Virus record (IMG/VR): IMGVR_UViG_3300010158_000060
Span: 1-64,000 of that record
Strand: one strand, 5' to 3'
Source of the DNA: a virus
Length of the DNA stretch: 64,000 bases
This document shows positions 3,454-59,509 of this stretch, in pieces. Numbering within the stretch: position 1 is the first letter of the stretch; every line of letters begins with the position of its first letter. A model generated the notes under the pieces. That model was given only the letters and a program-made list of their open reading frames with translations. It was not told the DNA's origin and did not search any database. Made by a program: the position numbers and the translations under genes.

Positions 3454-6400
3454 ATGGCAGATATGCAAGATACTTCCCAGACTATAACGGATAGTTTTAT
3501 AAAGGGGCTTAATAAAGATTCAGATTCTTCATATGTTACAGACGGTATGTGGACACATGCTGTCAACATGGTGAATAACTCTAAGACAGGTAAAGTAGGT
3601 TCAATATCTAATGAAGCTGCTAATTATATTTGTTTTAATGCTGGTGCATTTATGCCTAGTATTGCTGTAGAAAAATTAGTAATAGGGACTGTATATCTTT
3701 TTTCAGATAAGTGGATAATATTTACAGCGGGTCATAATACAAATGGTCAGCCTGTAAGTTCTGAAATTGGTTTATTTGAAGAAGAACAATGTAATTATAA
3801 ACCTATTGTAATTGATGCTTGTTTAAATTTTGATAAAAGATATTTAATATCTGGTGTATCAAGATTGAAAGAAGATTGTACATGGCAAGTATATTGGGGT
3901 GATGGTTTAAATCCAGATAGATATTTAAATGTTGGAGATCCACATACATGGCCTGGACCAGATTATTCCTACATAACATCTATAGGAGCTAATGCAAATT
4001 ACTACCAAGGACCTGGAGGAACTAAAATACTTTGGCCAAATGTACAATGGATAAAAAAATGTGAAGTTGTTAATGACTGTAACATATGTGAAAACACAAA
4101 CAAATTAGATTGTGAGCATATTAGATTAGCTAGACTTATGACTACACCTTGTTTAAACTTAACAAGAGGACAACAAGGGGGTACACTGGCTAACGGGACA
4201 TATTTTGCTCTTATAGCATATACTATAAAAGGACAGAAAGTAACTGATTATTTTGCACAAAGTAATTATCAGTTTATTTACTCACCTCAAGATCTTCAAG
4301 GATCACTTACTTTAAACATATCTGCAGATAATGTAAACTTTGATGAGTTTCAATTAGTAATGGTGAAGTGTGTTAACCAACAAACTGTAGCGCAGTTAAT
4401 GGGTATATACTCCACTAATACATCTACCGTAAGTATTGATCAAATTGATAATGGAGCTAACATAACAATACCTCTAGAACAACTTCCTTTACAAACTCCA
4501 GTATTTGAAACTTCAAATCAGATAGCAGAAGTAAATAATTATTTGCTAAGAGTTGGACCAAGAAGTAAGTTTGATTTTAATTATCAACCATTAGCTAACT
4601 TAATTAGAACTAAGTGGGCTTCTGTAGAATACCCTGCAGATTACTACATAAAAGGTGGTAACAAAACTAACTATATGAGAGATGAAGTATATTCATTTTT
4701 TATTAGATGGGTATATAATACAGGAGATAAAACTTCTACTTATCATATCCCAGGAAGACCACCTAGAAACTTTAATGTTCCTAACGGAGCAAGTTTAATT
4801 GAAAATGCTATTTTAATTGGTAATCAAAATACATTATACTCAGATGATAAAGTATTTGAAGTTTATAATACTGCTACAATAGACAATTCATCCTCACTAG
4901 TCGGTACTAATACTGATGACGGGGGAACTGTTATAGCAACAGGAGACATGGGATATTGGGAATCAACAGAGAAGTATCCTGATAATAGACCAGACATATG
5001 GAATCCATCTGCACACTGTTGGACAGGTCAAGATGCAACTGTAAATCCGGAAGAGTTTGATTTATGTGGTAAACACATTAGACATCATAAATTTCCAGAA
5101 GATTATGCAGCTGGAAGTACAGCAGATACAGTAACACATTTCAGAAGAAATCCTTCTCCTCAAAATAATACTAATCAGTTTTTTATTAGACTAATGGGTG
5201 TTTATTTTGAAAATGTTGCTTTACCAAAAGATAATGATGGTAATGATATACCAGGTATTGTAGGTTTTGAAATTCTTAGAGGTTCAAGAGAAGGTAACAA
5301 AACAATTGTTGCTAAAGGAATGGTAAACAATTTAAGAACTTATCAGGTTCCTGGCTCAGGTAATATTAGTACTACAGGTTTATATCCTAATTATCCATTT
5401 AATACTATACAACCTCTTAGTGCTGCACTAGGGGGTCATGTTGCTAATTATAATGATCCATTTATTAGAGCCGGTATAAGTAATGATCCAAATTTTGTAT
5501 ATACTCAAAGTGTACCTGATGATATCTTTAGTTTTCACTCACCGGATACTATGATGACTACACCTTTTTTATCAACAACAGAATTTAAAACTTATGGTCA
5601 ATTATCAGGATACAGTCAACAAAATTTTAATACTCCATCAGATCATCCTAAATTTAAATTGTTATCAGATGTTATTATTGTACCAATGTTACTTGCAGGA
5701 TTTGTCGAAGCAATTATTTCATCTGTTGGCAAAAGAACTGCTGTATCTAAAGGTCCTGCATATCAAGATCTTGAAGTTCCAGATGTTAGAGGTAAAGAAT
5801 TAAAAAATCATGAAATTGGTGGTTTTGTAACTAGTTTTGGAAATTTTCTTGAACCGGGTGTCTTAGCAGCAGGATCTGGTGATACATTTACAGGAAGTGT
5901 AACTTTTAAACCCTTAAATGGTGGTGATTTTTATGGTGAAAGTGGTAAAATTACAACAGAACAAGAAGGTATTCAAGTAAGTAAACCTGGTGATTTTGAT
6001 ACAAAATTAAATAGTTTCATTGGTACATTTGGTACATTAAATGCTCAAAGTACTCTTCCATCTATTATAGCAAATATTGGAGCTGGTGGTGGTAATTATG
6101 AAGATACATATGAAGATGCTGCCAAAAGTGCTAAAGATGTACTAGGTGGTATATATACAGCTCAAGAAATACATTCTGAATGGAATGATTCAAGATATTT
6201 ACCTACAAGTTTAAAAGGGGTAAATAATACAGGTAGATTTGCTTATTATTTCTCAGAAGGAATGAGAGTAACTTTAGATCTTATTTATGTTTTAACAGCA
6301 TACAAACAATATGCATTACAACAAAAAGCATACGGTTTTTATGCTAACATTGAAAAAAACTTAAATACTGATACTACAAGATTTAAAATGGAAGATGGTT

Positions 6401-9009
6401 TTTATCTAAGAGATAATATACAATCTGTATCTAGATATCAAGACAATAATGGTACATGGAGATCTTATAATATTAATAATATAAAAAGATCACCTAAAGT
6501 AATTGTAAGAACTAAAGCCGGTAATAATCAAAACATAGGTCCTAAACTATTATCTGGTGATAAATCATTAACTACATTAGGTACATTAATACAAACAAAC
6601 CCTACTTCTTTACTTCCTATTGGAACAAGTTTACCAGATTTTGAAGGTAATATTGATAGAACTTTTTCATTACCTATTCAAAGTCACTATGGTGCTATAA
6701 GAGGTAGAGTAAGAAACCAATATGGTCAATTAGATTCTATCAAACAATTACCGGTTGGAACATGTGAGCAAAAGCTTTCTGATTATAATATTAATCCATC
6801 AACTATAGTTTGTGATTCTGTTAACATAATAAAAAATACAATTTTTAGAACTACTCTAATGTTTGGTGGTGATACTTACATTAATAGATATACTGAAAAA
6901 GATAGTATGTGTTTCTTCTTTGATTGGTTATATAATCAACCTAACGGTTTTGAATATAATTATTACTTGAGAAGTATGATTCCTAATCCAAGGTTTAGAT
7001 TAAATAGTAGATTTTATGATGCACAAGATTTTGCACAAGCATTTAATGTACTTAATGTAGCTAACTTACCTACTGTTATAAATAGTATAATTAGTATTAT
7101 TACAGGTGTTAGTAATTTTCCACCTGGTGAAGGTATATTACCAACTGATTTTTATAATTTAGATTATGTTAAAGATTCTAAAAAATATAATTACAATAAT
7201 GATAAAGCAGGAAACTATCCAGGATTCTTTACTTGTAAAGATTCTTATTTTTATATATCTGTATCTTCAATAAGAGACTTTTTTGTTGAGTCAGAAGTAT
7301 TAGTTGATTTTAGAACACAACCTGAAGAGATTGCAAGAAAGTATTACAATCCGTATAACTTTACAGATTATAATGCAATGTTTGATACTAATCCTCTTAT
7401 ACTTGGAGTAAATAGTTTTAATCAATATGATTATTCATTAAGTGTATCTAAGTTATATAATCAATATTTCTCATTAGGTAGTGTGCAAAGTAGATACTAT
7501 AATCCTAATGTAGCTGACTTATGTTATACATATTATCCAAATAGAATTATTTACTCATTACCTCAACAAGATGAAGCAATAAAAGATAGCTGGTTTGTTT
7601 ATTTAGTAAATAATTACAAAGCATTTAAGTCTCATGTAAGTGGTGTTAAGTCAATAAATAAATCTGGTTTAGTAATCACATTTAAAAATGATAGCCCTAT
7701 AATGTATCAGGGTGTGGATACTTTACAAACTGATTTAGGAACTAAAGTTACTTTAGGTGATGGAGGTTTATTTAGTCAAGCACCACAGCAGTTATCTAAT
7801 GCGGATAAACCATATGAATATGGAGCATCACAAAATAGATTGTCTGTAATATCTACACCAGTAGGTATATACTACATGTCTCAAGCTGCAGGTAAAGTAT
7901 TCTCAATTGGAGAAGGACTTCAAGAGATTTCTCAGCAAGGAATGAAATGGTGGTTCACTGTGTTCTTACCGTACAAATTAACACAAGACTTCCCATTGTA
8001 TCCTTATCAAGATAATCCAGTAGCAGGTATTGGATGTCAAGCAGTGTTTGATAATACAAATACTATTTTATACTTCTGTAAGAAAGATTATGAACTTAAA
8101 GATAAGTACAAAGGAAAAGTAACATACATTCCACTTAAAGGTGATAGCACAGGTGATTACTTTATGATTAATGGTAATACTACAGCTAAATTCAAACTTG
8201 GTGATCCAATCTTATTTAGAGATGCATCATGGACTATAAGTTATGACCCTAAAAATCAGTTCTGGATTAGTTTCCATGACTGGCATCCAGATCTATTCAT
8301 GCCTACTAAAGATGTATTTATATCTACAAAAGGTACCGGTGGTTGGAGACATAACTGGATCTGTGATAAGTATTGTAATTATTATGGTATTGATTATGCA
8401 TGTGAGATTGATGTTCCAATTACAACTGGTCAATCAGTTACTACTACAAGATCTGTTGAATACATAATGGAAGCATATAGAAAAACAGATAACTGTGTAG
8501 ATTCTTATCATGTACTAGATTATAACTTTGATACGGCTGTTGTATATAACTCAGAACAAGTATCGGGTTACTTAAATCTTAATATATATCCTAAGAATGA
8601 TCTTGCTCTTACAAGACAATTCCCAAGATTGAATCCAGTTACCTTAACTTCATTTGATATTTTATTTTCAAAAGAAGAAAACAAATATAGATTTAATCAG
8701 TTCTGGGATATTACAAAAGATAGAGGTGAGTTTCCAATTGGTACAGCTTACCCTGCTGGACAAGGACCATATGTATCTGGAACTACAACATTGTTAGGTA
8801 ATTATAGCAATTTAAATACATGGATTACAGAACCAGATGGTTTTAGAAGAGTATTAAATCAAAATAATCTTAACTATGCTAAGCCAGAATTACAAAGAAA
8901 AAAATTCAGACATTACATGAGTTTTATTAACTTCAAGAAAAATATATCTGGTAATACAAATATTGTTTTAAAAATTGATAATAGTAAAAATGAAATTTCT
9001 CTAAGATAA
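3454..9009 (+). CDS. Giant tail protein, probable muzzle/nozzle
   Basis: At 1851 residues this is the largest protein of the tail block. The N-terminus (FIKGLNKDSDSSYVTDGMW, then HAVNM) resembles the opening of nozzle-type tail proteins of short-tailed phages, where an early strand leads into a beta-propeller-like body. The rest is rich in Asn, Tyr, Gly and Thr, as in large beta proteins, without coiled coils or clear membrane segments. A Cys-rich patch lies near residues 203-235 (CEVVNDCNICE and two later cysteines), parallel to the patch in the preceding gene. In crAss-like virions a muzzle of comparable size follows the tail hub gene and closes the short tail. The gene overlaps the next by TAATG. 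Confidence 0.7.
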   Translation: MADMQDTSQTITDSFIKGLNKDSDSSYVTDGMWTHAVNMVNNSKTGKVGSISNEAANYICFNAGAFMPSIAVEKLVIGTVYLFSDKWIIFTAGHNTNGQPVSSEIGLFEEEQCNYKPIVIDACLNFDKRYLISGVSRLKEDCTWQVYWGDGLNPDRYLNVGDPHTWPGPDYSYITSIGANANYYQGPGGTKILWPNVQWIKKCEVVNDCNICENTNKLDCEHIRLARLMTTPCLNLTRGQQGGTLANGTYFALIAYTIKGQKVTDYFAQSNYQFIYSPQDLQGSLTLNISADNVNFDEFQLVMVKCVNQQTVAQLMGIYSTNTSTVSIDQIDNGANITIPLEQLPLQTPVFETSNQIAEVNNYLLRVGPRSKFDFNYQPLANLIRTKWASVEYPADYYIKGGNKTNYMRDEVYSFFIRWVYNTGDKTSTYHIPGRPPRNFNVPNGASLIENAILIGNQNTLYSDDKVFEVYNTATIDNSSSLVGTNTDDGGTVIATGDMGYWESTEKYPDNRPDIWNPSAHCWTGQDATVNPEEFDLCGKHIRHHKFPEDYAAGSTADTVTHFRRNPSPQNNTNQFFIRLMGVYFENVALPKDNDGNDIPGIVGFEILRGSREGNKTIVAKGMVNNLRTYQVPGSGNISTTGLYPNYPFNTIQPLSAALGGHVANYNDPFIRAGISNDPNFVYTQSVPDDIFSFHSPDTMMTTPFLSTTEFKTYGQLSGYSQQNFNTPSDHPKFKLLSDVIIVPMLLAGFVEAIISSVGKRTAVSKGPAYQDLEVPDVRGKELKNHEIGGFVTSFGNFLEPGVLAAGSGDTFTGSVTFKPLNGGDFYGESGKITTEQEGIQVSKPGDFDTKLNSFIGTFGTLNAQSTLPSIIANIGAGGGNYEDTYEDAAKSAKDVLGGIYTAQEIHSEWNDSRYLPTSLKGVNNTGRFAYYFSEGMRVTLDLIYVLTAYKQYALQQKAYGFYANIEKNLNTDTTRFKMEDGFYLRDNIQSVSRYQDNNGTWRSYNINNIKRSPKVIVRTKAGNNQNIGPKLLSGDKSLTTLGTLIQTNPTSLLPIGTSLPDFEGNIDRTFSLPIQSHYGAIRGRVRNQYGQLDSIKQLPVGTCEQKLSDYNINPSTIVCDSVNIIKNTIFRTTLMFGGDTYINRYTEKDSMCFFFDWLYNQPNGFEYNYYLRSMIPNPRFRLNSRFYDAQDFAQAFNVLNVANLPTVINSIISIITGVSNFPPGEGILPTDFYNLDYVKDSKKYNYNNDKAGNYPGFFTCKDSYFYISVSSIRDFFVESEVLVDFRTQPEEIARKYYNPYNFTDYNAMFDTNPLILGVNSFNQYDYSLSVSKLYNQYFSLGSVQSRYYNPNVADLCYTYYPNRIIYSLPQQDEAIKDSWFVYLVNNYKAFKSHVSGVKSINKSGLVITFKNDSPIMYQGVDTLQTDLGTKVTLGDGGLFSQAPQQLSNADKPYEYGASQNRLSVISTPVGIYYMSQAAGKVFSIGEGLQEISQQGMKWWFTVFLPYKLTQDFPLYPYQDNPVAGIGCQAVFDNTNTILYFCKKDYELKDKYKGKVTYIPLKGDSTGDYFMINGNTTAKFKLGDPILFRDASWTISYDPKNQFWISFHDWHPDLFMPTKDVFISTKGTGGWRHNWICDKYCNYYGIDYACEIDVPITTGQSVTTTRSVEYIMEAYRKTDNCVDSYHVLDYNFDTAVVYNSEQVSGYLNLNIYPKNDLALTRQFPRLNPVTLTSFDILFSKEENKYRFNQFWDITKDRGEFPIGTAYPAGQGPYVSGTTTLLGNYSNLNTWITEPDGFRRVLNQNNLNYAKPELQRKKFRHYMSFINFKKNISGNTNIVLKIDNSKNEISLR

Positions 9010-12000
9010 TGTATAACAAGAAGACTCTATCTAAAGCTACAGCTGAGTTGGACAAAGCTAAAGCTCCTAAGAAACCTAAAGATATAATCACTGATCCAAT
9101 GGGTCAGTGGAAGTATCCTGGTTTACCTACTAGAATTCCTGGTAATGATATTACCATGAAAGGAGTGGGTTATCCTGTATTAGGTGTAGCCAATAATGGT
9201 CAGAGAAAGATAATGCTTCCGGGAGCGGACTATACTTTTCCTGGAGCAGACTATGTGGATGAATACCCACAGATGAAAAAAGGAGGTACAAAAAAGAAAA
9301 GAAAGACTAAGAGTATAATGGGTATTAATAAACTCATGCAAAAAGGTCCTTTATTTGAAGACTACTCAAAAAAAATGTATGATCCAAATGTAAACTACTT
9401 TCAAGATGGTGGTGATAAGAAAGCTTCAGTAGAAGGATACCAAGATGAAAATATGTGGTTAGGAGATAAGTATAAAGATCTTGGAGCAACAGTTTCTAAA
9501 GGTAAAATAAGTGCTTCTGCAGGAAATTATTTTCCAATGATGACAACCGATCCTCAAAGTAATTTTAATCCCTATGTAAATTTAGCAGTAGACTTAGGTA
9601 AAGACAGAAATTTAAGTTTTGATTTTCAGCCTGATTATACAGGTGTAAACTTTACTAAAAGTTTTCAAGAAGGTGGTGCAAAAACATTATCTACAAGTAA
9701 ATCTAAAGATGGAACAATTACCAATAAAGTAAGGAGAGATGGTAAAACATTTTTGCAAGTTAAAAGTAAAGATGGAAAATACTATGAAAAAGAAATTCCA
9801 ACAGTTACCCGTGCTAAAGGTTTTGAAGCAGCAGTAAGTAAAAGTATTGGAAACCCAATGGACAGAGCTTATGATTATGTAGAAGGTCTTCGTACAAATG
9901 GAGAAGATCCTCAAGATAATTTAAGACATGCAACAGCTGGAAGATATGCTGCAGAAGGTTTATTAAAAAATGCCAGAGAAGGTTATATTCCTTTTCCAGA
10001 TGCTGTAAATAAAGCAACATCATGGTTAACAGCTAATGCATTAGGAGTTGGTCATGAACTAAGTACAATATTTCAAGATAAAAGACCTTGGGGAGTAAAG
10101 CTAAGAGAAGCTGGTGAAGATATTTATAATAATGGTGTAGGTGTTAATCAAGGTTTATCTGATAAATCTAATAAAGATAAAACACAAAACTTAAAAGATA
10201 GATCTTTAAACTATGAGTTACCTGATGGTTATGGAGAAGAACATCCTTTTCATAATAAATGGGTGGATCCTTACAGTAAAAAACAAGAAGGTGGTCCGCA
10301 AAATACATCTGGTCCTAGACAATATATGGATGAATATGAAGAAGAACAAACTATTCCTGAATTTACAGATGCTTATATGAAGCAAAGATATAAAGTTGAA
10401 CAATCAAATAAAAAAGCTCAAGACTTTAATAAAACTTATGCTGAATCTGAAAATTATAAAAGATTACTAGAAAAACAAGGTTACACACCTGAAGAAATAA
10501 AAAATAGAATTGCTTCAGTTACAGGGATTTCAGATTTTAATTACACAGATAATGGACCTAGCTGGGTTGGTGGTGATCCTGAAACTGGTAAAGAATTTAT
10601 AACTTATAATGTTATGGATCAAGGAGATTGGGCAAACTATGACTCAATTGCAGGACATGAGTGGGGGCATGTCGGAGTAGAATCAGGACAAAGCCCTCTC
10701 AAACAAGGAGAGCAAGATGCCTTTATTAATAGACTTAAAATAGACAATGTAAATAAGGACGAAGGGCACGCAGAACATGATAAAGCTCCTCAAGAAAATA
10801 GAGCAGATTTGTTACAGTTAAGACAACAACTTCAAGAGGCAGGTTTATTTGATTCTACAAAAACTAAAGAATTTACTAAAGATCATCTTAAAGAATATAA
10901 AAAATTAAGAAATTCTTCTGAAGAAAATTATGATAAGTTTCATAACAGAATGTTTAGATTATATGATGATAAAGATATCATATGGTTAATGAATAATATT
11001 GCTCAAAATAACAATAAACAAAATACTAATGATGATTTGCAAACAGCTCAGTATGGAATTGAAATGGAGCTTACTCCAGATGAGATTGAAGAATACAGAA
11101 AAGGTGGTTACATAGTAGAAGACATATCTGTACCAGAACTTAATCAAGCTCAGAAAGGTGGTGCTAAAGATAAATATGCTACTCATATTGGTGATGATGG
11201 TACTGTAGGAAGTACAAATGTACATACTGATAAGAATGGTACTATCACAACTAAAGTACAGGATTCAAAAGGTATAACACATTATAAAGTAAAAACAAAA
11301 GATGGTAAAGTATTTTATAAACAAGATGCTTCAACAACTTATCCAAAAAATAATTCTGTAGTTCCGGAAAATTATAAACCTGATCCTAGACAGATTGAAA
11401 TGAATGATGGACCAATGCAATCAGTAGATGACTTTTGGACATTACCTATTGGTATGAGTAGCGCAGGAGTTAGGGGTACAATAGGTTTAGCAAAAGGTTT
11501 AACTTCTCTTGGACGTAATGCTGCTAAGTCATCATTAGTACAAGCAACAAAGCAAGGTTTTAATCAAAGTTTAATTAAAAGTTTACCTGGATCTAATTTA
11601 AAGAATTTAGTTAATTCATATTTTACTACAAGTGGTATAAATAACTATATAGATCAAAATAGTGATGTAAGAAGAGCAACTAAAAATGCTTATGATGATC
11701 CTACACTTGATAATGTTGTAGATGCTGTAGGTGAAAATACCTGGAATGCACTCAACTTTTCAGGACTTAATGTAGGCAAAGGTGTAAAACAATTAGGTAA
11801 ATATGCTACAACACAAACACCTTTAAAAAATACATACAAAGTATTACCTGAAGGTACATTTAAGAATTATTCTAAACTTAAAACAAAAGGTAAATCATAT
11901 AGAGTTGCTGGTCATGATGCACATGCTGATTTTACTGAATCAGGTTTATTGCGTTCAAAAACTAACTTACCTGAAAAGGCAACTATTTTAGATAGGATGG

Positions 12001-13385
12001 AAAAAAGACCTACAGCATTTCCTTCATTTCAAAAAAATTATGCTGACCTAAGCTATTTACCTGAAAATGGAGGAGTAGTTTTTGAAACAAGTTTGCCAAC
12101 TTTTAAAAGAGGTCAACTTAATCCTGTTACTGGAGAAAAAATAAAGGGTAGACATTATGCTCATAGAGTTATTGATCCTCAAACTGGAAAAACTCTTACA
12201 GAAATTCCAGCATCTGATATAGATGTTTATGAAGGTTCTGCTAATTGGTTAAAAGGACATAAAAAAATATCTGGACAACAACCTCAAGCTTCTGCTAATA
12301 AAAATAAAATACCAGGACTTCCAAGAGTAGTTAGTTTTTTAAATGGTTTAAACTATGGAATGAATGATATTATAAAAGGAAGAAAGTTTTCTGAAACATT
12401 TCCTATAACAAAAAAGCAAAAAGCTAAAATAGAATATTTGCAAGATCAAGCTCATAAAGGAGGACTTGAATTTATGAATGATTATCTTTATCGTATTCAT
12501 GATGGTGTACCACATTATGGTGAAATACATCCTGATGTTAGATCAAAAATAGATAAAATAACGGATTTAGAAGATCCTACATTAGATGCTTTTAAAAGAA
12601 AATTTGATATTACTCATAATTTAATAGGTCCTTATGGTAATGCTCAACATCATTTAGCAAATGCTGATGAAAAAGAATTAGTAAAAGCACTTAATAATGG
12701 TACTTTGGATGCTAAAACTGTAGATTATATAAGAAGAAATAAACATAAAATAAGAGGTGTTAATTGGCATCCTAAAAGTATTACTTTAAGAAATAAAGGA
12801 GTTTACTATGAAAGCCCTGAAGCTATAAGAAATGTGACAGTTCATGAAGCAGGACACAGTATGCAACAATTGGGTTATGGAAGTAACACAATTCGGAATA
12901 GTTTGTCTATGTATGATCCTAAATATCCATATGATATTGCAAATGAAAATACTAAATTTGGTAAAGAATTTAGAAATGCTCAAGTTTTTCCAAAAGAAAA
13001 ACAGTACTTATGGGAAGCAAGTCCATTAGAAGTTCATTCAGAAGCAATGGCTGCTAAAGATAAAATCTATAGAGAGTTTATTAAAAAAGGAATGAATAAA
13101 ATGGATGCTTTAAGATATTTAAGAAATCCTGATAATACTTTAGCAGATGAGATTATTAAAGAAGGTTCATTAAATAGATTTTTTAAGGATGGTATATCAA
13201 ATGATCAAAAAAGAAAACTTATTAAAATGTTACCTGCAATAATACCTGCTGGAGCTGCAGTAAATTATATGCCTAAACCTCAAAAATCTAAACAAATGAA
13301 GAAAGGTGGTATTGTTGCTGATTTAACTCATGCAGAAATTCAAGACTATATTAAACAAGGTTACATTGTTGAAGATGTAGACTAA
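9009..13385 (+). CDS. Giant virion/cargo protein with two zincin motifs
   Basis: A 1458-residue protein with two metallopeptidase-like HExxH motifs: HEWGH at residues 550-554, followed by an ENRAD segment, and HEAGH at 1279-1283, followed by EASPLEVHSE. These downstream acidic residues may supply the third zinc ligand. The protein looks internally duplicated: each half has a GTIT(N/T)KV...KDGK segment (starting near 235 and 744), then a zincin motif, then GYIVED (700-705 and 1451-1456). Before the first zincin, RHA (306-308), GHE (348-350) and DIYNNGVG (371-378) form a further motif set. Several [KQE]xGG tracts punctuate it. It is probably packaged and ejected; peptidase targets could be cargo, capsid or host envelope proteins. 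Confidence 0.8.
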   Translation: MYNKKTLSKATAELDKAKAPKKPKDIITDPMGQWKYPGLPTRIPGNDITMKGVGYPVLGVANNGQRKIMLPGADYTFPGADYVDEYPQMKKGGTKKKRKTKSIMGINKLMQKGPLFEDYSKKMYDPNVNYFQDGGDKKASVEGYQDENMWLGDKYKDLGATVSKGKISASAGNYFPMMTTDPQSNFNPYVNLAVDLGKDRNLSFDFQPDYTGVNFTKSFQEGGAKTLSTSKSKDGTITNKVRRDGKTFLQVKSKDGKYYEKEIPTVTRAKGFEAAVSKSIGNPMDRAYDYVEGLRTNGEDPQDNLRHATAGRYAAEGLLKNAREGYIPFPDAVNKATSWLTANALGVGHELSTIFQDKRPWGVKLREAGEDIYNNGVGVNQGLSDKSNKDKTQNLKDRSLNYELPDGYGEEHPFHNKWVDPYSKKQEGGPQNTSGPRQYMDEYEEEQTIPEFTDAYMKQRYKVEQSNKKAQDFNKTYAESENYKRLLEKQGYTPEEIKNRIASVTGISDFNYTDNGPSWVGGDPETGKEFITYNVMDQGDWANYDSIAGHEWGHVGVESGQSPLKQGEQDAFINRLKIDNVNKDEGHAEHDKAPQENRADLLQLRQQLQEAGLFDSTKTKEFTKDHLKEYKKLRNSSEENYDKFHNRMFRLYDDKDIIWLMNNIAQNNNKQNTNDDLQTAQYGIEMELTPDEIEEYRKGGYIVEDISVPELNQAQKGGAKDKYATHIGDDGTVGSTNVHTDKNGTITTKVQDSKGITHYKVKTKDGKVFYKQDASTTYPKNNSVVPENYKPDPRQIEMNDGPMQSVDDFWTLPIGMSSAGVRGTIGLAKGLTSLGRNAAKSSLVQATKQGFNQSLIKSLPGSNLKNLVNSYFTTSGINNYIDQNSDVRRATKNAYDDPTLDNVVDAVGENTWNALNFSGLNVGKGVKQLGKYATTQTPLKNTYKVLPEGTFKNYSKLKTKGKSYRVAGHDAHADFTESGLLRSKTNLPEKATILDRMEKRPTAFPSFQKNYADLSYLPENGGVVFETSLPTFKRGQLNPVTGEKIKGRHYAHRVIDPQTGKTLTEIPASDIDVYEGSANWLKGHKKISGQQPQASANKNKIPGLPRVVSFLNGLNYGMNDIIKGRKFSETFPITKKQKAKIEYLQDQAHKGGLEFMNDYLYRIHDGVPHYGEIHPDVRSKIDKITDLEDPTLDAFKRKFDITHNLIGPYGNAQHHLANADEKELVKALNNGTLDAKTVDYIRRNKHKIRGVNWHPKSITLRNKGVYYESPEAIRNVTVHEAGHSMQQLGYGSNTIRNSLSMYDPKYPYDIANENTKFGKEFRNAQVFPKEKQYLWEASPLEVHSEAMAAKDKIYREFIKKGMNKMDALRYLRNPDNTLADEIIKEGSLNRFFKDGISNDQKRKLIKMLPAIIPAGAAVNYMPKPQKSKQMKKGGIVADLTHAEIQDYIKQGYIVEDVD
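9684..13382 (+). repeat. Internal duplication within the 1458-residue protein
   Basis: Two diverged modules lie in tandem at the protein level: about 9684-11123 and 11190-13382. Each begins with a short beta-type segment GTIT(N/T)KV followed by a KSKDGK or KTKDGK strand, contains one HExxH motif, and ends with GYIVED. The DNA itself has diverged too far to show a direct repeat. Confidence 0.5.
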
Positions 13386-13395
13386 ATTTTTAAAG

Positions 13396-13427
13396 TTTAA
13401 ACAATAAATTTATTTTTAGTATATTAA
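13396..13427 (+). promoter_or_regulatory. Putative promoter before the 892-residue gene
   Basis: The 58-base gap before the ATG at 13444 holds TTTA (13396-13399), 20 bases, and TATATTAA (13420-13427). This resembles the Bacteroidetes -33/-7 arrangement, with the same spacing as two other candidates in this block. The short leader would be about 10 bases. Evidence is weak because the region is nearly all A and T. Confidence 0.3.
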
Positions 13428-13443
13428 ATTATAATCTTTACAA

Positions 13444-16122
13444 ATGGAAAGAAGAACAGTTAGAATTTACAAAGCTCCCAACGGACAAGGTGAATATATA
13501 AATAAGACAGGTCAGTTTTTGAAGAAAGCACAAATGGGTGTTGAAACAAGAAGTGAGGAAGTCATGCAGGAAAAACAAATAGAAGCATTAAAACAATATG
13601 TAACTGGGGCTTTAGATAATCAAATGGAGCCAGAAGAAATATATAGATTATTAGTTTCTAAAGGTGTTCCTAAAGAAATAGCATATCCTATTTTAACTCA
13701 AGTTATGCAAGAAATGGAAGCTCCAGAAGAAGAAGAGCAACCAGAAACTAAAGAAGGATCTGCTGAAGAATCTAAAATTGGTCAGTCTGAGTTTCAACCT
13801 GTAGGTCAAGAGAATCAAGAGACTGAAGAAGAAGATGCTGCAAGTGATGGTATGAATTATGATAATTCATATGCTGATGAAGAAGACTCAAATGTTATTG
13901 CTAACAGTGAAGAAGAATTTCAAGATGGTGGACCAATTTTATCATATGAACAATTATCAGCTAATGAAGGTGAAGAAGAAGATACTGGTGATGATTTAAA
14001 TGACAGATTAGCTTCACTTGAAGACTTTGTAGGTAAAACTGAAGATGATGACTTTAAGAATTTTGGAAAAGACATCAGTGAGTATGAAGGTAATTATACA
14101 CCTATTGAATGGGATACATTAGGAGATGGCTATGGTTACTATAAAAAAGGAGGTTCTAAAAAGAACTTTACAAAAAATGTATTATCTCTTATCAAAAAAC
14201 AAGAAGGTGGTGATGCAGAAGAGTCTACTGAAATAGGTAGAGGTAATAAAAAAGATACTTTAACAAATGATGTTTCTAAAATTAAATCTTCATTTACTGA
14301 TAAACTAAAAGAAGTATCTAGTAAAGCTGCTATAGATTCTATCTATGATAAGATGATGAAGTCTAATGATCCTGAGTTAATGCAATCTGCACAAGAACTT
14401 GCTCAGAACAGACAGAAGTCAAGTCAAATGGGAAGTTTTGAACCAGTTGCTCAACAAGGTGGTTATATAGGAGAAGATCAGCCTGACATGTTTAGTCAAG
14501 GTGGTTTTGATATGCCTCAAGCACAAAAAGGAGGAATGCAAAAACTTGGTGACTTCTTGTTAGGAGAAAAATATACTACAGCTAATAATCCATATAATGC
14601 TAAGACTGGTGCTTTGTATAAAGATCCTTTGACAGGTTTAACTCCTGTAGCAAGAACTGTACATAAAAGAGGTATATTAGGAAGACCTAAAAAATATACG
14701 GATTACTATTCTAAAAGTGGTAACATTAATGTTCCAGGAGAAAGTGTATCTAAAAAAGATGTAAAAGCTGATTCAAAAAAACGTGAGTATAACATACCTG
14801 ATGACCAATATGAAAAATTGTCTAGAAGAGAAAAAAGACAAGAAAGAAAATGGGCTAAGTTAGAGAATGAAGATAAAGAATTTATGTCTAATCCTAATCT
14901 TATGCAACAAAATGATGGTTACATGCAACAAATCAATGATGCAAATGGTAATAGATTAGAAACACCTAAGCTAGTTGGAATTTCAAAAGAATTAAAACCA
15001 GAATTATCATATGAAAAAAGAATGAATATGGATAATGCTGATTTTTATAATAATGGATATAAAGAACAACCTTTACCTGATGGATTAACTGCAGAAGAAG
15101 AGGAAGCTATGGCTCAATCAAATCTTGAAAGAGATGCTATTTTAGAAAAATATACTGCAGAGAATGAGGCTGCTAATGAAGCAGAAGCTCAAAGAAAAAA
15201 ACAAGCTTCACTTTTTTATCTAAATTATCCTGAAGGTAATACTGATAGACGTATTGGATTAGGTGATTATACTGATGGAGATCTTGCTGTAAATTATGCT
15301 AAAACTAGAGATAGAGCTTATAATCAATTTGCTAAAGCAAGAGATTTTAAACCTGATCTTAAAAAGTTTTTTGAAGATCCTGAAACTATTAAAAAAAGAA
15401 AAGAAGAAGAGGAAGCAAGAAAACAAATGCAAGAAGAAGGTACAGAAGCTGAGTATGAAAAAAGATATGGTGGTTTACCAAAAGCTCAAATAGGTGTTAA
15501 ATCTCCTACAAATATGTTAAATCCTGCATCTGATGCAACAGTTATGAAACCTGGAACTGGTCCGTTAGCTATGCCTCCATTAGTTTCATCTGCAAAAAAA
15601 GAAGATTGGCGCGCACCTATGTTAGCACCAGCTGATGAAAATGATGATGATTCTGCATTACCCGATATATTAGATCCAAATAAATTTAAAGAAACTGTTC
15701 TTAATACAAAAGATACACAAGGAGAAGATGATTTAATAGCACAAGATGTAGAAACAAAAAGAAAATTTAATGGTGTTAATTTTGATAACAAATTAAATAT
15801 GGGTCTTGATGCTTTCACTGGAACAATGCGTGGTTTAAATCAAGCTAAGCAGCAAAATGAAATGTATGCAAATAACTTTAATGCTGATAGTCTTTATGGA
15901 GCTTCTACTAATAAAGACAAAGGAGATTATGTAGCTTATGGTCAACAAACAGGAATGTTTAGACCAAATGAAACAGGTCAAGAAACTATGGGTAGATTTG
16001 CATATGGTCAATCTGGTGGTTATATGGAAGAAGGCGGTTTTGCTGAGGGAGATGAAGTTGATATGACTGAAGAAGAATTAGCAGAATTTATTGCTAACGG
16101 AGGTGAAGTAGAATATTTATAA
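13444..16122 (+). CDS. Acidic virion/cargo protein with GG-punctuated repeats
   Basis: This 892-residue protein has a short basic N-terminus, then a long acidic low-complexity region (about residues 90-230) and charged helical stretches. It is marked by repeated short tracts: KKAQMG, FQDGG, YKKGG, KQEGG, AQQGG, FSQGG, AQKGG, PKAQIG and QSGG. The same kind of tract occurs in the neighbours on both sides. The C-terminus (MTEEELAEFIANGGEVEYL) resembles the C-terminus of the preceding protein. No enzyme motif is seen. Composition and place suggest an internal, ejected or scaffold-like virion protein. The tracts could be linkers or processing sites; that is inference. Confidence 0.75.
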   Translation: MERRTVRIYKAPNGQGEYINKTGQFLKKAQMGVETRSEEVMQEKQIEALKQYVTGALDNQMEPEEIYRLLVSKGVPKEIAYPILTQVMQEMEAPEEEEQPETKEGSAEESKIGQSEFQPVGQENQETEEEDAASDGMNYDNSYADEEDSNVIANSEEEFQDGGPILSYEQLSANEGEEEDTGDDLNDRLASLEDFVGKTEDDDFKNFGKDISEYEGNYTPIEWDTLGDGYGYYKKGGSKKNFTKNVLSLIKKQEGGDAEESTEIGRGNKKDTLTNDVSKIKSSFTDKLKEVSSKAAIDSIYDKMMKSNDPELMQSAQELAQNRQKSSQMGSFEPVAQQGGYIGEDQPDMFSQGGFDMPQAQKGGMQKLGDFLLGEKYTTANNPYNAKTGALYKDPLTGLTPVARTVHKRGILGRPKKYTDYYSKSGNINVPGESVSKKDVKADSKKREYNIPDDQYEKLSRREKRQERKWAKLENEDKEFMSNPNLMQQNDGYMQQINDANGNRLETPKLVGISKELKPELSYEKRMNMDNADFYNNGYKEQPLPDGLTAEEEEAMAQSNLERDAILEKYTAENEAANEAEAQRKKQASLFYLNYPEGNTDRRIGLGDYTDGDLAVNYAKTRDRAYNQFAKARDFKPDLKKFFEDPETIKKRKEEEEARKQMQEEGTEAEYEKRYGGLPKAQIGVKSPTNMLNPASDATVMKPGTGPLAMPPLVSSAKKEDWRAPMLAPADENDDDSALPDILDPNKFKETVLNTKDTQGEDDLIAQDVETKRKFNGVNFDNKLNMGLDAFTGTMRGLNQAKQQNEMYANNFNADSLYGASTNKDKGDYVAYGQQTGMFRPNETGQETMGRFAYGQSGGYMEEGGFAEGDEVDMTEEELAEFIANGGEVEYL

Positions 16123-16132
16123 TCTTAATAAG

Positions 16133-18937
16133 ATGAAAGTAAGAATTAAAAAAGTACCGCAAGCTAGAACAGGATACCAAGTACAAGGTTCTTTAGCTAA
16201 TGATGTACCAGCTATGGGTGGTGCAGATTACAATGCTTATATAGGTAAACCAAATCTAAAAGCCAGCAAGTATATAACGGCTGTTCCTAGAGAAGAAGCT
16301 AATCTAGAAGCAGAAGGAGGAGAAACTGTATATGGTGACATCAATGGTGATGGAATGCCAGAACACAAAACTATCAAAGGTCCAAGACACTCTGGAGGAG
16401 GTGTTCCATTAAACTTACCTGATGACACTTTTATATATAGTGACTTCAGAGGTATGAACATTAAAGAACCTGAGTTCTTACAAATGTTTGGTAAAGGTAG
16501 TAAGGGTAAGAAAAGTTATACTCCAGCGGCACTTGCTAAACAATATGATATTGAGAAATACAGAAAGATTCTTCAAGATCCAGACTCAGATGCAATTGAT
16601 AGAAAAACTGCAGAGCTGATGATTAAAAATTATCAAAACAAACTTGCAGCATTAGCATTAGTACAAGAAGGTAAGAAAGGATTCCCTCAAGGTATGCCAG
16701 CTGTTGCAAAACCTATGCTTACAGAAAATCAATATTCAGAAGATACATTTGTTGATCCTTCTATTAAAGAATTTGCTGGACAAATAGATGGTAAATTACA
16801 AGAAGTAGAACAAAAACAAAATACTGAAGAACAAGATCCTGACTATGCTCAACAAGCTGAAGAGATGAATGAAGGTCAACCTATTGCTCAACCTACTGCA
16901 CAGTATGGTATGTCAATGGGTGGATATGATTTACCTTATGGTGATGATATGCCAGAAGCAGAGTATGGTATGTCTATGGGTATTACTTCTAAGAACTATA
17001 TGGGAAGACCTAAGTCTGCTATGTATGCTAGAGGAGGTGCTTTAAGAACATACCAAGGTAAAGAAGGTGCTAGTTCTACTGGTGCTACAGGAGGTGCTCC
17101 AGCTGATAGTGATGTAATTGATGTTACAGGTTTGGATGAAAATGCAGCTAATGCTAAATATTATACTTGGATGGATAGACATCCAAATAAAGAACCTAAA
17201 ATAATGTTGAATGGTAAAGCTGCTAGATATGTACCACCATCTAAAAAAGACAGTCCAACACTTGACGATCTTAAAGCATTGCATCAATCTCAATACAAAT
17301 ATTTAGAAACAGAATTAAATGATCCAAAATCAAAAGTTAGAGAAGCATATTTAACAGAATATAAAAATGCATTACAAAATAGAAAAGCTTATGGAAATAG
17401 TCCAAATGCAAATAAAAGGTTTGAAATGTATTCTAAAATGGATATAAAACCTGAAGATGCAATAAAAAGTTTATTAGATCAAAAGAAAAGAAATGATTCA
17501 ATCAAAGAAAAAGGTATAGATATGCAACTTTTTTCAAATGAGAATGCTCAACTTTTAACACCAGAAAAAATGGTTGCTGCTGGTATTAAAAAAGGTGATG
17601 GCTCACCTATGACTCTTGATGATGCTAAAAAAATACATAAAGAATACACAAATAATAATTGGACAACTAGAGATCAAGTTGCAAAAGCAGCAGGTGTTAC
17701 AATACCTGATCCAAAAACAACCATATTAGAACAAGCTAGTACTCATGCAATTGCAGGAATGGCCAAACAAAAAAAGAATGGTACTTATAATAATTTTGAT
17801 GATGATCAATCATATAAAATGTATCAATTTTTAGGAAAAGATAAAAGTAGAGAAACTAATACTGGTGCTGCAGATGAAAGTTCAATGGGAAGTTTATATG
17901 GTTCTGAGTACAACACAATGTCTCCAATAGATGGTGTTCCAACAAATTCAACATTAGGTCATGGTTTTGATCCAGCTATTGATAAAGGAAAATTTGAAGC
18001 TGTACCTGAAGAAAAAAATAATCAAGTAGCAGGACCATGTCCAGAATGTACTAGAGCTGATGGTAGTGCTTATGTACCAGAAAGAAATGCTGATGGTAGT
18101 TGTCCTCCATGTGTAGAAAGTGGTACTCCTGCTCAAGAGACTGAACCTAAAATGTGGTTGCAAGATAAAATGAAAATTGCAGGTGCTTTTGGTGATTTAA
18201 TGGGTGCTAAGAAATACATGCCTTGGGCTGCTAAGTATGATTTGAGAACACCAAAACCTACATTCATGGATCCAACAAGAGAACTTGCTGCTAATGCTGA
18301 GCAAGCTAATATACAAACACAAGCTCTTGGTCAGTTTGCAGGACCTCAAGCATTGTCTGCTAGATCTTCTGGTGTAATGGGTGCTGCTAGTAAAAATGCT
18401 GCGGATGTAATGGCTAAATACAATAATGCCAATGTAAACATTGCTAACCAATTTGAATCCAATATTTCTAATATTGAGAATCAAGAGCAACAATTAAATA
18501 CTGCTTCTCAACAAAAACTATATGATCAGAATACTATTTCTAATCAACAGTATGATAATACTAAGAGAGCACTGAGAAATAATTTATTAAATCAAACTAC
18601 ATCAGGTATTACAAACATGATGAAAACAGATGCTATGAATCAGATATATCCTCAGTTTGATGTTGATGCATCAAGTGGTGGTAAAGTTACTTATGATCCA
18701 ACAAAATCTAGAAAAGTTAAACCGGAAGTATCAGGAAGTAGTTATGAAGCTTTCCATAAAGAATGTTCAAAATTATATAAAGATGAAACTCAGATTGAAA
18801 AATGTGTAAATAAAAAAATGAATACTGCATCATCTAGTGGAGGTGAAGATGATGATGATGCTCAAAAGGTTATGTCAATATATAAACAAAAAGGAGGATT
18901 TATGTATGGTGATATAACTTACCCATTCATACTCTAA
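16133..18937 (+). CDS. Probable internal/ejection virion protein
   Basis: A 934-residue protein with a basic N-terminus (MKVRIKKVPQARTG). A compact conserved-looking block follows near residues 54-104, with EANLEAEGGETVYGD and then HSGGGVPLNLPDDTFIYSD. I have the impression that this block recurs in proteins of Bacteroidetes phages, but I cannot name the family. Two CxxC pairs lie near residues 635-660 and could hold zinc. From about residue 690 on, the protein is helical and rich in Ala, Asn and Gln, typical of ejected internal virion proteins of short-tailed phages. It starts ten bases after the previous stop and ends in a QKGG tract plus a short hydrophobic tail. The role in DNA ejection is inferred. 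Confidence 0.75.
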   Translation: MKVRIKKVPQARTGYQVQGSLANDVPAMGGADYNAYIGKPNLKASKYITAVPREEANLEAEGGETVYGDINGDGMPEHKTIKGPRHSGGGVPLNLPDDTFIYSDFRGMNIKEPEFLQMFGKGSKGKKSYTPAALAKQYDIEKYRKILQDPDSDAIDRKTAELMIKNYQNKLAALALVQEGKKGFPQGMPAVAKPMLTENQYSEDTFVDPSIKEFAGQIDGKLQEVEQKQNTEEQDPDYAQQAEEMNEGQPIAQPTAQYGMSMGGYDLPYGDDMPEAEYGMSMGITSKNYMGRPKSAMYARGGALRTYQGKEGASSTGATGGAPADSDVIDVTGLDENAANAKYYTWMDRHPNKEPKIMLNGKAARYVPPSKKDSPTLDDLKALHQSQYKYLETELNDPKSKVREAYLTEYKNALQNRKAYGNSPNANKRFEMYSKMDIKPEDAIKSLLDQKKRNDSIKEKGIDMQLFSNENAQLLTPEKMVAAGIKKGDGSPMTLDDAKKIHKEYTNNNWTTRDQVAKAAGVTIPDPKTTILEQASTHAIAGMAKQKKNGTYNNFDDDQSYKMYQFLGKDKSRETNTGAADESSMGSLYGSEYNTMSPIDGVPTNSTLGHGFDPAIDKGKFEAVPEEKNNQVAGPCPECTRADGSAYVPERNADGSCPPCVESGTPAQETEPKMWLQDKMKIAGAFGDLMGAKKYMPWAAKYDLRTPKPTFMDPTRELAANAEQANIQTQALGQFAGPQALSARSSGVMGAASKNAADVMAKYNNANVNIANQFESNISNIENQEQQLNTASQQKLYDQNTISNQQYDNTKRALRNNLLNQTTSGITNMMKTDAMNQIYPQFDVDASSGGKVTYDPTKSRKVKPEVSGSSYEAFHKECSKLYKDETQIEKCVNKKMNTASSSGGEDDDDAQKVMSIYKQKGGFMYGDITYPFIL

Positions 18938-58177: not shown

Positions 58178-59026
58178 TTATAGAATCTCCAAGTATTTAT
58201 TATACTTTCTTGTTATATACATATCTGCTATAGGATTGTTATATACAGCTTTTAATAAAGGTAAATACATTTTACCAATAAAATTTATTGAATATACATT
58301 AACAGAATACTTAATCTTGTAAGGTTTAACTTTAACAGTTTTACCTAAAATAAACTCACAAAATTTTTTAAATGCCTTAATAGTATCTTCTGTACCAACT
58401 AAAGATATTCCGTAAGTTGTGTACTTTTTTTGATACTTAAAAATACATCCATCTCCATCAAGCATACCTCTCCAAAAGTGAGAATTATATAAATAACAAT
58501 CAGGAACTTTATAGTCAGTTGTTTTGTTTTTTATAATACCTCTTTCTTCAAAAAACTTTCTAAATGTTGAATCAGAAATAGTTAATCTTACAGATTGTTT
58601 CATTGTATACAAAGGACCTGTATAATTAAAATAATTACTTACTTTTTCAAGTATTTCTTTATCTGTACTTTGTAAACCAAGTGAAAGACCTGATTTTTCA
58701 TTTGAACCATCTGCTGCATAAAGACCTGCTATATAAGCAGTTATTTCATTATCTACTAGTTTATCTACATTAACTGTATACTTCTTGTTTTTTACACCAA
58801 TACATTTTACAGCTTCTTTTTGTAAACAACCACATGATTGTACTTTAGATTTATTCAAAGAGGAAAAATCTGTATTAGTAATATTACCACAATCACATTG
58901 ACACTTAATATAATAAGCTCCCCATTTGTTTTTATGTGATAATTTTATTACTTGAAGTCTACCAATCTTAGGTAAAGCTATTAACATATCCTTGTATGTT
59001 CTATAAGTTCCTGTTTGTGCTCTCAT
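58178..59026 (-). CDS. LAGLIDADG homing endonuclease with N-terminal zinc ribbon
   Basis: A 282-residue protein from the ATG at 59026; the frame extends to a TTG at 59041, which I reject. The N-terminal part has CQCDCGN (from residue 42) and SCGC (64-67), a likely zinc-binding DNA-contact module. Two LAGLIDADG-type helices follow: AYIAGLYAADGS (97-108) and FWRGMLDGDG (184-193), with the acidic Asp of each kept. This is a monomeric double-motif endonuclease. It stands free between replication genes, not inside an intron or intein that I can see, so it is a selfish mobile gene. It has its own possible promoter. Confidence 0.88.
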   Translation of the reverse strand: MRAQTGTYRTYKDMLIALPKIGRLQVIKLSHKNKWGAYYIKCQCDCGNITNTDFSSLNKSKVQSCGCLQKEAVKCIGVKNKKYTVNVDKLVDNEITAYIAGLYAADGSNEKSGLSLGLQSTDKEILEKVSNYFNYTGPLYTMKQSVRLTISDSTFRKFFEERGIIKNKTTDYKVPDCYLYNSHFWRGMLDGDGCIFKYQKKYTTYGISLVGTEDTIKAFKKFCEFILGKTVKVKPYKIKYSVNVYSINFIGKMYLPLLKAVYNNPIADMYITRKYNKYLEIL

Positions 59027-59030
59027 AGAA

Positions 59031-59038
59031 CAAATATA
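59031..59038 (-). promoter_or_regulatory. Putative -7 element for the homing endonuclease
   Basis: On the - strand TATATTTG matches TAnnTTTG exactly, only four bases before the ATG at 59026, which would give a very short or no leader. No convincing -33 TTTG is present at 19-21 bases. A TTTG there is also expected by chance in this composition. Confidence 0.25.
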
Positions 59039-59068
59039 CAAATAATATACTACATTCCTAACATATTT

Positions 59069-59509
59069 TCATTTAGAACGGAAGAATCTACCTAAGATGT
59101 TTCCATTAAGAAACTGTTCTTTTTCAAGTACTTCCATACAAAATTGATGTTTAGTTTCTTGATAAGTAAGCTCCATACTTGAATAACATATTTTAAGTAT
59201 TTCTCTTTTTATTGTCACACCTTGCTTATGTGCTTGCTTTAGTACTGCATTTGAACTGTAGTAATTAAGAAAATCCGGTCTAATAACCAGTTTATATTTC
59301 TTTAACCTTTTATCAGTAGTCACAGCTAAAGCTTTTTTACCAAGTGGTCTTTTTATATTAGCAAAGAAATTTTTCTTGCCTATGTAAGAAACAGACTTAC
59401 CATCTATTATAGCTGTCATAAGATAAATAAATCCTATTCCTCCTTCTGGGATATCTAGTTCACTAAATACTTTACCTTTATAAGTCCAAAAATCTATTGG
59501 TTGATTCAT
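59069..59509 (-). CDS. GIY-YIG-like putative nuclease
   Basis: The 146-residue protein has GFIYLMTA followed by SYIGKKNFF (about residues 26-49), the two-strand GIY...YIG arrangement, though the usual Arg of the next helix is not clear. A later YQETKHQFCMEVLEKE contains a possible metal-binding Glu. It overlaps the primase gene by ATGA and so belongs to the replication transcript. A structure-specific or repair nuclease is likely. It might instead be a second homing-type nuclease, but its tight coupling argues for a resident gene. Confidence 0.7.
   Translation of the reverse strand: MNQPIDFWTYKGKVFSELDIPEGGIGFIYLMTAIIDGKSVSYIGKKNFFANIKRPLGKKALAVTTDKRLKKYKLVIRPDFLNYYSSNAVLKQAHKQGVTIKREILKICYSSMELTYQETKHQFCMEVLEKEQFLNGNILGRFFRSK

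Follow-up and report, generated by a model that had tools for sequence, protein, structure and literature searches.

Gene organization at the locus

Among the viruses of the human gut, crassviruses are the most abundant. The window analysed here, which corresponds to the first 64,000 nucleotides of IMG/VR record IMGVR_UViG_3300010158_000060 (72,333 bases), is part of a crAss-like phage; Pfam analysis revealed Crassvirales-type muzzle and ring proteins in their conserved order. The muzzle gene (3454..9009; PF25731 crAss_MUZ, E=3.3e-30) has crAss ring proteins 2 and 1 upstream of it (CrAss_Ring_2, 1e-19; CrAss_Ring_1, 1e-7) and forms the upstream border of a block of three adjacent genes, whose products contain recurrent short tracts ending in glycine. 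These genes, all on the plus strand like the muzzle gene, code for P1458 (9009..13385), a modular cassette protein of family A, P892 (13444..16122), a mostly disordered member of family B with the highest tract density, and P934 (16133..18937), a member of family C and candidate homolog of cargo protein C1. The downstream border is the tract-free product of the next plus-strand gene, the C2-like cargo protein P1040 (18998..22120), which has a homolog in Lbo-JY46 (E=1e-9) and is followed by the giant RNA-polymerase block. The order muzzle-A-B-C1-C2-RNAP1 is kept in about 80 related IMG/VR loci and, by profile and position, in Lbo-JY46.

In crAss001 the equivalent stretch codes for the cargo proteins C1 (gp45) and C2 (gp46) and for RNAP proteins, and mass spectrometry of virions detected these proteins (PMC10172136). 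By analogy with this phage, and with the annotation "virion structural protein" in Cellulophaga phi17:2, a C1-type protein is expected in the virion, and the three tract proteins are probably virion components that are ejected into the host. CrAss001 C1 (PDB 7qog) resembles P934 in its position after the muzzle and before C2 and RNAP, and the window proteins in its many hydrophobic-x-x-GG sites between cassettes, its portal-bound domain and its long helical C-terminal part; however, it is one protein as opposed to three, its tracts are mostly A[FYE]GG and not QxGG, and the homology is weakly detectable. Indeed, P934-type proteins gave a weak hhalign match to residues 479-543 of crAss001 gp45 (probability 26%, E 7e-4), and the P934 domain sub-profiles were also weak against crAss001-type C1; C1-type profile matches were obtained with csAssE-Sib (8e-7) and phi17:2 gp041 (0.0015). 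The AlphaFold2 model of P934 had no significant match in the PDB by Foldseek, so that its assignment to C1 is based on gene order and on a weak similarity of profiles. Searches of INPHARED by tblastn with P934 and with the P1458 N-terminus gave no match, and the only matches of P934 to the PDB by phmmer were antibodies, set aside as low-complexity.

The cultured phage phi17:2 has fewer, differently divided proteins than the window phage. Its gp041 carries six tracts and has the family A N-terminus and a C1-type domain in common with the window proteins, while its gp042 has the arrangement lysozyme-FLKEGG-zincin-YAQAGG-zincin, with lysozyme and zincins separated by tracts.

A short motif shared by three protein families

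A first-pass annotation of the window had listed recurrent tracts between the domains of the three proteins, and all of them (QMKKGG, YFQDGG, SFQEGG, KKQEGG, QAQKGG, YYKKGG, KAQMG, PKAQIG and PQARTG) are present at positions of the kind it described. In non-redundant families the residues preceding GG are strongly biased, with F, Y or M at -3 and Q, K, R or A at -2; the motif can be written as [FYM][QKA]xGG, with the variant A[QKR]xG. The pattern [KQ]x?GG occurs 11 times in P1458 and 10 times in P892, against 3.0 and 1.9 expected, and none of 300 residue shuffles reached either count. GG alone is not enriched in P1458 and mildly so in P892 (10 vs 6.5 expected), which indicates that the flanking residues matter. 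For P934 the excess of [KQ]x?GG is weak when the protein is taken alone (2 vs 1.8 expected), but its whole family is enriched for the full motif. Indeed, among 193 proteins, [FYM][QKA]xGG exceeds the shuffled expectation 12.3-fold in family A (60 proteins), 16.8-fold in family B (66) and 6.8-fold in the C1 family (67).

As had been claimed, the enrichment is peculiar to the three families: it is not observed in the control families C2 (0.3x), muzzle (1.3x) and RNAP1 (0), and within the window no excess of [KQ]x?GG is present in the muzzle and ring proteins, P1040, the RNAP proteins or the products of minus-strand genes. A separate class of GG is found inside folded domains, with EAEGG and RHSGG in P934 and FIANGG in P892. 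Among open-licence papers, no description of such a motif in crassviruses was found.

Position of the tracts in the three proteins

All the tracts described here are on the plus strand. The conserved N-terminal scaffold of P1458 (aa 1-135, 9009..9413; alignment A1, with profile matches to Lbo-JY46 and phi17:2 gp041) contains QMKKGG (9270..9287), whose GG is invariant in 9 relatives, and ends at YFQDGG (9396..9413), directly after which the coverage by homologs drops from 30 to 7. A beta-strand-rich cassette (aa 143-222, 9435..9674), flanked by two tracts and with similar cassettes in the relatives L008, L009, L122 and L076, is followed by SFQEGG (9660..9677) and by the first copy of a mobile element of about 40 aa, which begins just past that tract (9678..9794). 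KKQEGG (10278..10295) precedes a zincin-like cassette with the sequence HEWGH (aa 543-674, 10635..11030; phrog_24249, E=2.9e-13); coverage then rises from 3 to 26 at AQYG (11046..11057) and drops from 27 to 11 after QAQKGG (11145..11162). Between these two tracts, EYRKGG (11091..11108) lies within a repeated LTxxEIxxYxxxGYxVE element. A second copy of the mobile element (11211..11324) has its start 17 aa past the closest tract upstream, a second HExxH (HEAGH, 12843..12857) is located in a C-terminal cassette, and the protein closes with another QMKKGG and a conserved tail (13293..13382), the last GG of the family being about 24 aa away from the C-terminus.

In P892 the series starts with AQMG (13528..13539, as part of KAQMG; G invariant in A7) and continues with EFQDGG (13915..13932), YYKKGG (14137..14154, both G invariant), KKQEGG (14194..14211), VAQQGG (14446..14463, both G invariant), MFSQGG (14488..14505) and QAQKGG (14518..14535). 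Two pairs of tracts follow, EKRYGG and PKAQIG (15457..15495, PKAQIG at 15484) and YGQSGG and YMEEGG (16003..16038), and then the C-terminal tail DEVDMTEEELAEFIANGGEVEYL (16045..16119), for which AlphaFold2 predicts a beta-alpha-beta fold (strand 871-875, helix 876-884, strand 887-891); in most relatives the last GG is 5 aa from the C-terminus. P934 has PQARTG at its N-terminus (16163..16174), AQYG and GMSMGG in a disordered linker (16898..16924), MYARGG (17021..17038) and, at its C-terminus, YKQKGG with the tail FMYGDITYPFIL (18881..18934).

The regular spacing suggested by the first-pass annotation is not what these positions show, since the tracts are located where modules meet and at the ends of the proteins. 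Families A and B also have in common a short C-terminal element, (L/M)TxxE(I/L)xx(Y/F)xxxG(Y/G)x(V/I)E, found in the window at 13305-13382 and 16045-16119, and the same element recurs within family A proteins.

Cassettes and their junctions

Family A proteins range in length from 363 to 2507 aa around the conserved N-terminus and C-terminal tail. The cassettes strung between their tracts include a phage lysozyme (PF00959 in L105), zincins, Zn-ribbons and beta-rich pieces, so that several unrelated domains occur in one polypeptide, as in proteins of the polyvalent type; P1458 itself contains two HExxH motifs. The phrog_24249 zincin profile, which matches the first zincin cassette of P1458, has a length of 739 aa, i.e. 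the length of phi17:2 gp042.

The tracts adjoin the boundaries of these cassettes. With tracts masked, 46% of the sharp homology breaks in family A lie within 12 aa of a tract, compared to 14% by rotation (47% vs 14% unmasked), although the clusters of breaks are not phylogenetically independent, and the masking carries some bias, as a masked muzzle control is above its null (0.167 vs 0.049) and the unmasked one is not. In family B the association is weaker (31% vs 23% for the null), and in the C1 family it is absent (14% vs 15%, masked), as it is in C2. The mobile element is present in 16 copies in 13 family A proteins, and 15 of the 16 begin 0-8 aa past a tract; moreover, L009 consists of the cassette of L007 followed by that of L008, joined at a tract. 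Thus, in family A the motif marks the points where cassettes are swapped, duplicated or absent. In C1 proteins of gut crassviruses two cassettes are found in tandem or on one or the other side of the portal-bound domain, and the relocated or duplicated cassettes start 0-1 residue from GG.

In the beta-strand-rich cassettes (window 9435-9677; L008, L009, L066, L076, L122) a strand resembling the last strand of an OMP is found right before the tract, as in VNFTKSFQEGG, LTYSFQEGG and LTYNFKDGG; these cassettes could be pieces of an outer-membrane channel.

Conservation and predicted disorder

Within stretches that change fast and are mostly disordered, the tract glycines belong to the best conserved columns. 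In an alignment of 23 family B proteins with a mean column identity of 19%, they account for 10 of the 23 invariant columns, and in 28 C1 family proteins identity is 0.75-0.96 for the tract glycines at 256-264, 298-302 and 918-922, compared to 0.32-0.45 for the flanks. The last GG lies at a median distance from the C-terminus of 24 residues in family A, 5 in B and 12 in C1, vs 152 for the C2 and 221 for the muzzle controls. The lack of conserved tract positions, which the first-pass annotation had named as part of what would refute its reading, is thus not observed.

The tracts fall in predicted disorder. In the AlphaFold2 model of P934 (28 sequences, mean pLDDT 67.7), the inter-domain and terminal tracts are in the segments 7-38, 226-325 and 900-934, with pLDDT below 50. 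In that of P892 (23 sequences, pLDDT 52.5), 11 of 12 tracts are within such segments or at most 3 residues from them, which is mild evidence, since these segments cover 55% of the protein; the GG of the remaining tract is in a turn of the predicted C-terminal beta-alpha-beta tail.

Possible roles as hinge or docking points, cleavage sites or linkers

The explanation that we tentatively prefer is that the tracts represent one short linear motif, placed at disordered module junctions and near protein ends, which would provide uncut hinge or docking points of a modular, threaded ejection complex. We infer that the three proteins are located in the virion, docked and threaded. In crAss001 the chain of C1 is threaded through the portal and the tail, and its portal-bound stretch 425-552 was resolved by cryo-EM in the mature virion (PMC10172136). 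In the proposed mechanism, the proteins of families A, B and C1 would form a chain stored in the lumen of portal and tail, where each motif, as a putative uncut hinge and docking point, might hold the unfolded linker against the wall of the lumen or against a partner chain; on host contact, the folded cassettes would be threaded out successively and refold in the periplasm. With the same junction on both sides of each cassette, exchange could take place without disturbing packaging. The motif can be used as a parsing rule for threaded proteins that are otherwise impossible to annotate, revealing their exchangeable cassettes, and its occurrence throughout the modules suggests that they have a docking partner or a processing enzyme in common.

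The latter possibility was already considered in the first-pass annotation, which suggested cleavage by a virion protease and pointed to the zincins of the same block. According to this explanation, a GG-specific or zincin protease would cut after GG, during assembly or after ejection, freeing the cassettes as separate enzymes, much as the adenovirus protease acts within virions. The tracts are located exactly between cassettes and are similar to the sites of the adenovirus protease, which have the consensus (M/I/L)XGG↓X and tolerate Gln at P4 (PMC4246237); in adenovirus, too, hydrophobic-x-GG sites are repeated in virion-internal proteins. Zincin motifs (HExxH) are found in P1458, P3465, P2240 and crAss001 gp47, and zincin processing has been proposed for polyvalent proteins (Iyer et al. 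2017, PMC5512222). These phage proteins are large, combine zincins with other activities in several domains and are believed to reach the host together with the DNA, and are similar in this respect to the tract proteins; however, the passages of that paper considered here describe no short junction motif for them, and the tracts of the window phage are independent of zincins. Indeed, HExxH is present in 15 of 59 family A, 1 of 66 family B and 0 of 67 C1 proteins, and tract density is alike in proteins without it (p = 0.29), so that cleavage by the block zincins is not supported; the zincins look like cassettes themselves. Maturation cleavage in the virion is not supported either, as the resolved segment of crAss001 C1, in the one relevant structure, contains GG at 427, 434 and 447; these three sites, of the FGG/QGG/EGG type and not exactly [KQ]xGG, are thus intact in the mature virion. 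Moreover, a cut at the conserved tracts 5-24 aa from the C-terminus would free a short peptide only. As for an adenain-like or other dedicated enzyme, 18 records gave no match to C39 peptidases (8 of 14 control genomes matched) or to S78 prohead proteases (4 controls matched); they also gave none to C5 proteases, for which two controls matched, neither over the cut-off, nor to C48 proteases, for which no control matched, making that search uninformative. On these grounds proteolytic processing is doubtful, and we consider a role as uncut hinge or docking point more likely than cleavage. We regard as quite unlikely the more specific case in which an unrecognised GG-specific crassvirus protease cuts one threaded polyprotein after ejection, so that a lysozyme, a metalloprotease and further enzymes would be released in the periplasm, while a host protease or a zincin from the RNAP block may cut after ejection; if true, GG cleavage after ejection would be a case of polyprotein processing in tailed phages, convergent with adenovirus maturation.

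The first-pass annotation also considered a general cargo-loading signal, which fails because the motif is absent from the cargo proteins C2 and RNAP. Overall, of its interpretation, the recurrent inter-domain tracts in three proteins and their conserved positions stand, while cleavage by block zincins, virion maturation cleavage and the loading signal are not supported.

Permissive flexible linkers left by modular evolution, with neither a partner nor a cut, would also be found in disorder and at exchange points. However, a plain linker does not need a fixed aromatic residue at -3 or Gln, Lys or Ala at -2, nor does it need invariant glycines in fast-evolving relatives and a fixed C-terminal position, which makes this explanation unlikely. 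Repeated tract-encoding DNA could in principle promote cassette exchange, and cassettes do exchange at tracts; yet codon usage for Gly and Gln is the same at tracts as in the background, and the core is encoded by 110-212 distinct 12-mers per family, indicating that selection acts on the protein and not on a DNA repeat, and this very improbable reading was rejected on codon usage. Finally, although the tract proteins are rich in G, K and Q, a chance or composition effect is barely credible, with counts 7-17 times over residue shuffles and conserved positions.

Other genes noticed at these loci

In L001, L004, L011 and other relatives, an ORF of about 211 aa resembling GIY-YIG homing endonucleases and starting with MATYIQSSSGIYKIT is found between C1 and C2; its first codons copy the C2 start (MATYIQGVTDYIPDF), as if it had been inserted just past that start. 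In the window, P2449 (22123-29472) contains a stretch, GETDLVLINTKGEIMIVDFKT, that by eye is reminiscent of a PD-(D/E)XK nuclease, and P2240 (39874-46596) has, in addition to its HExxH, a LysM domain and matches ART-PolyVal weakly. The replication block of the window includes a LAGLIDADG-like gene (58178-59041) and a SegE GIY-YIG endonuclease gene (59069-59509).
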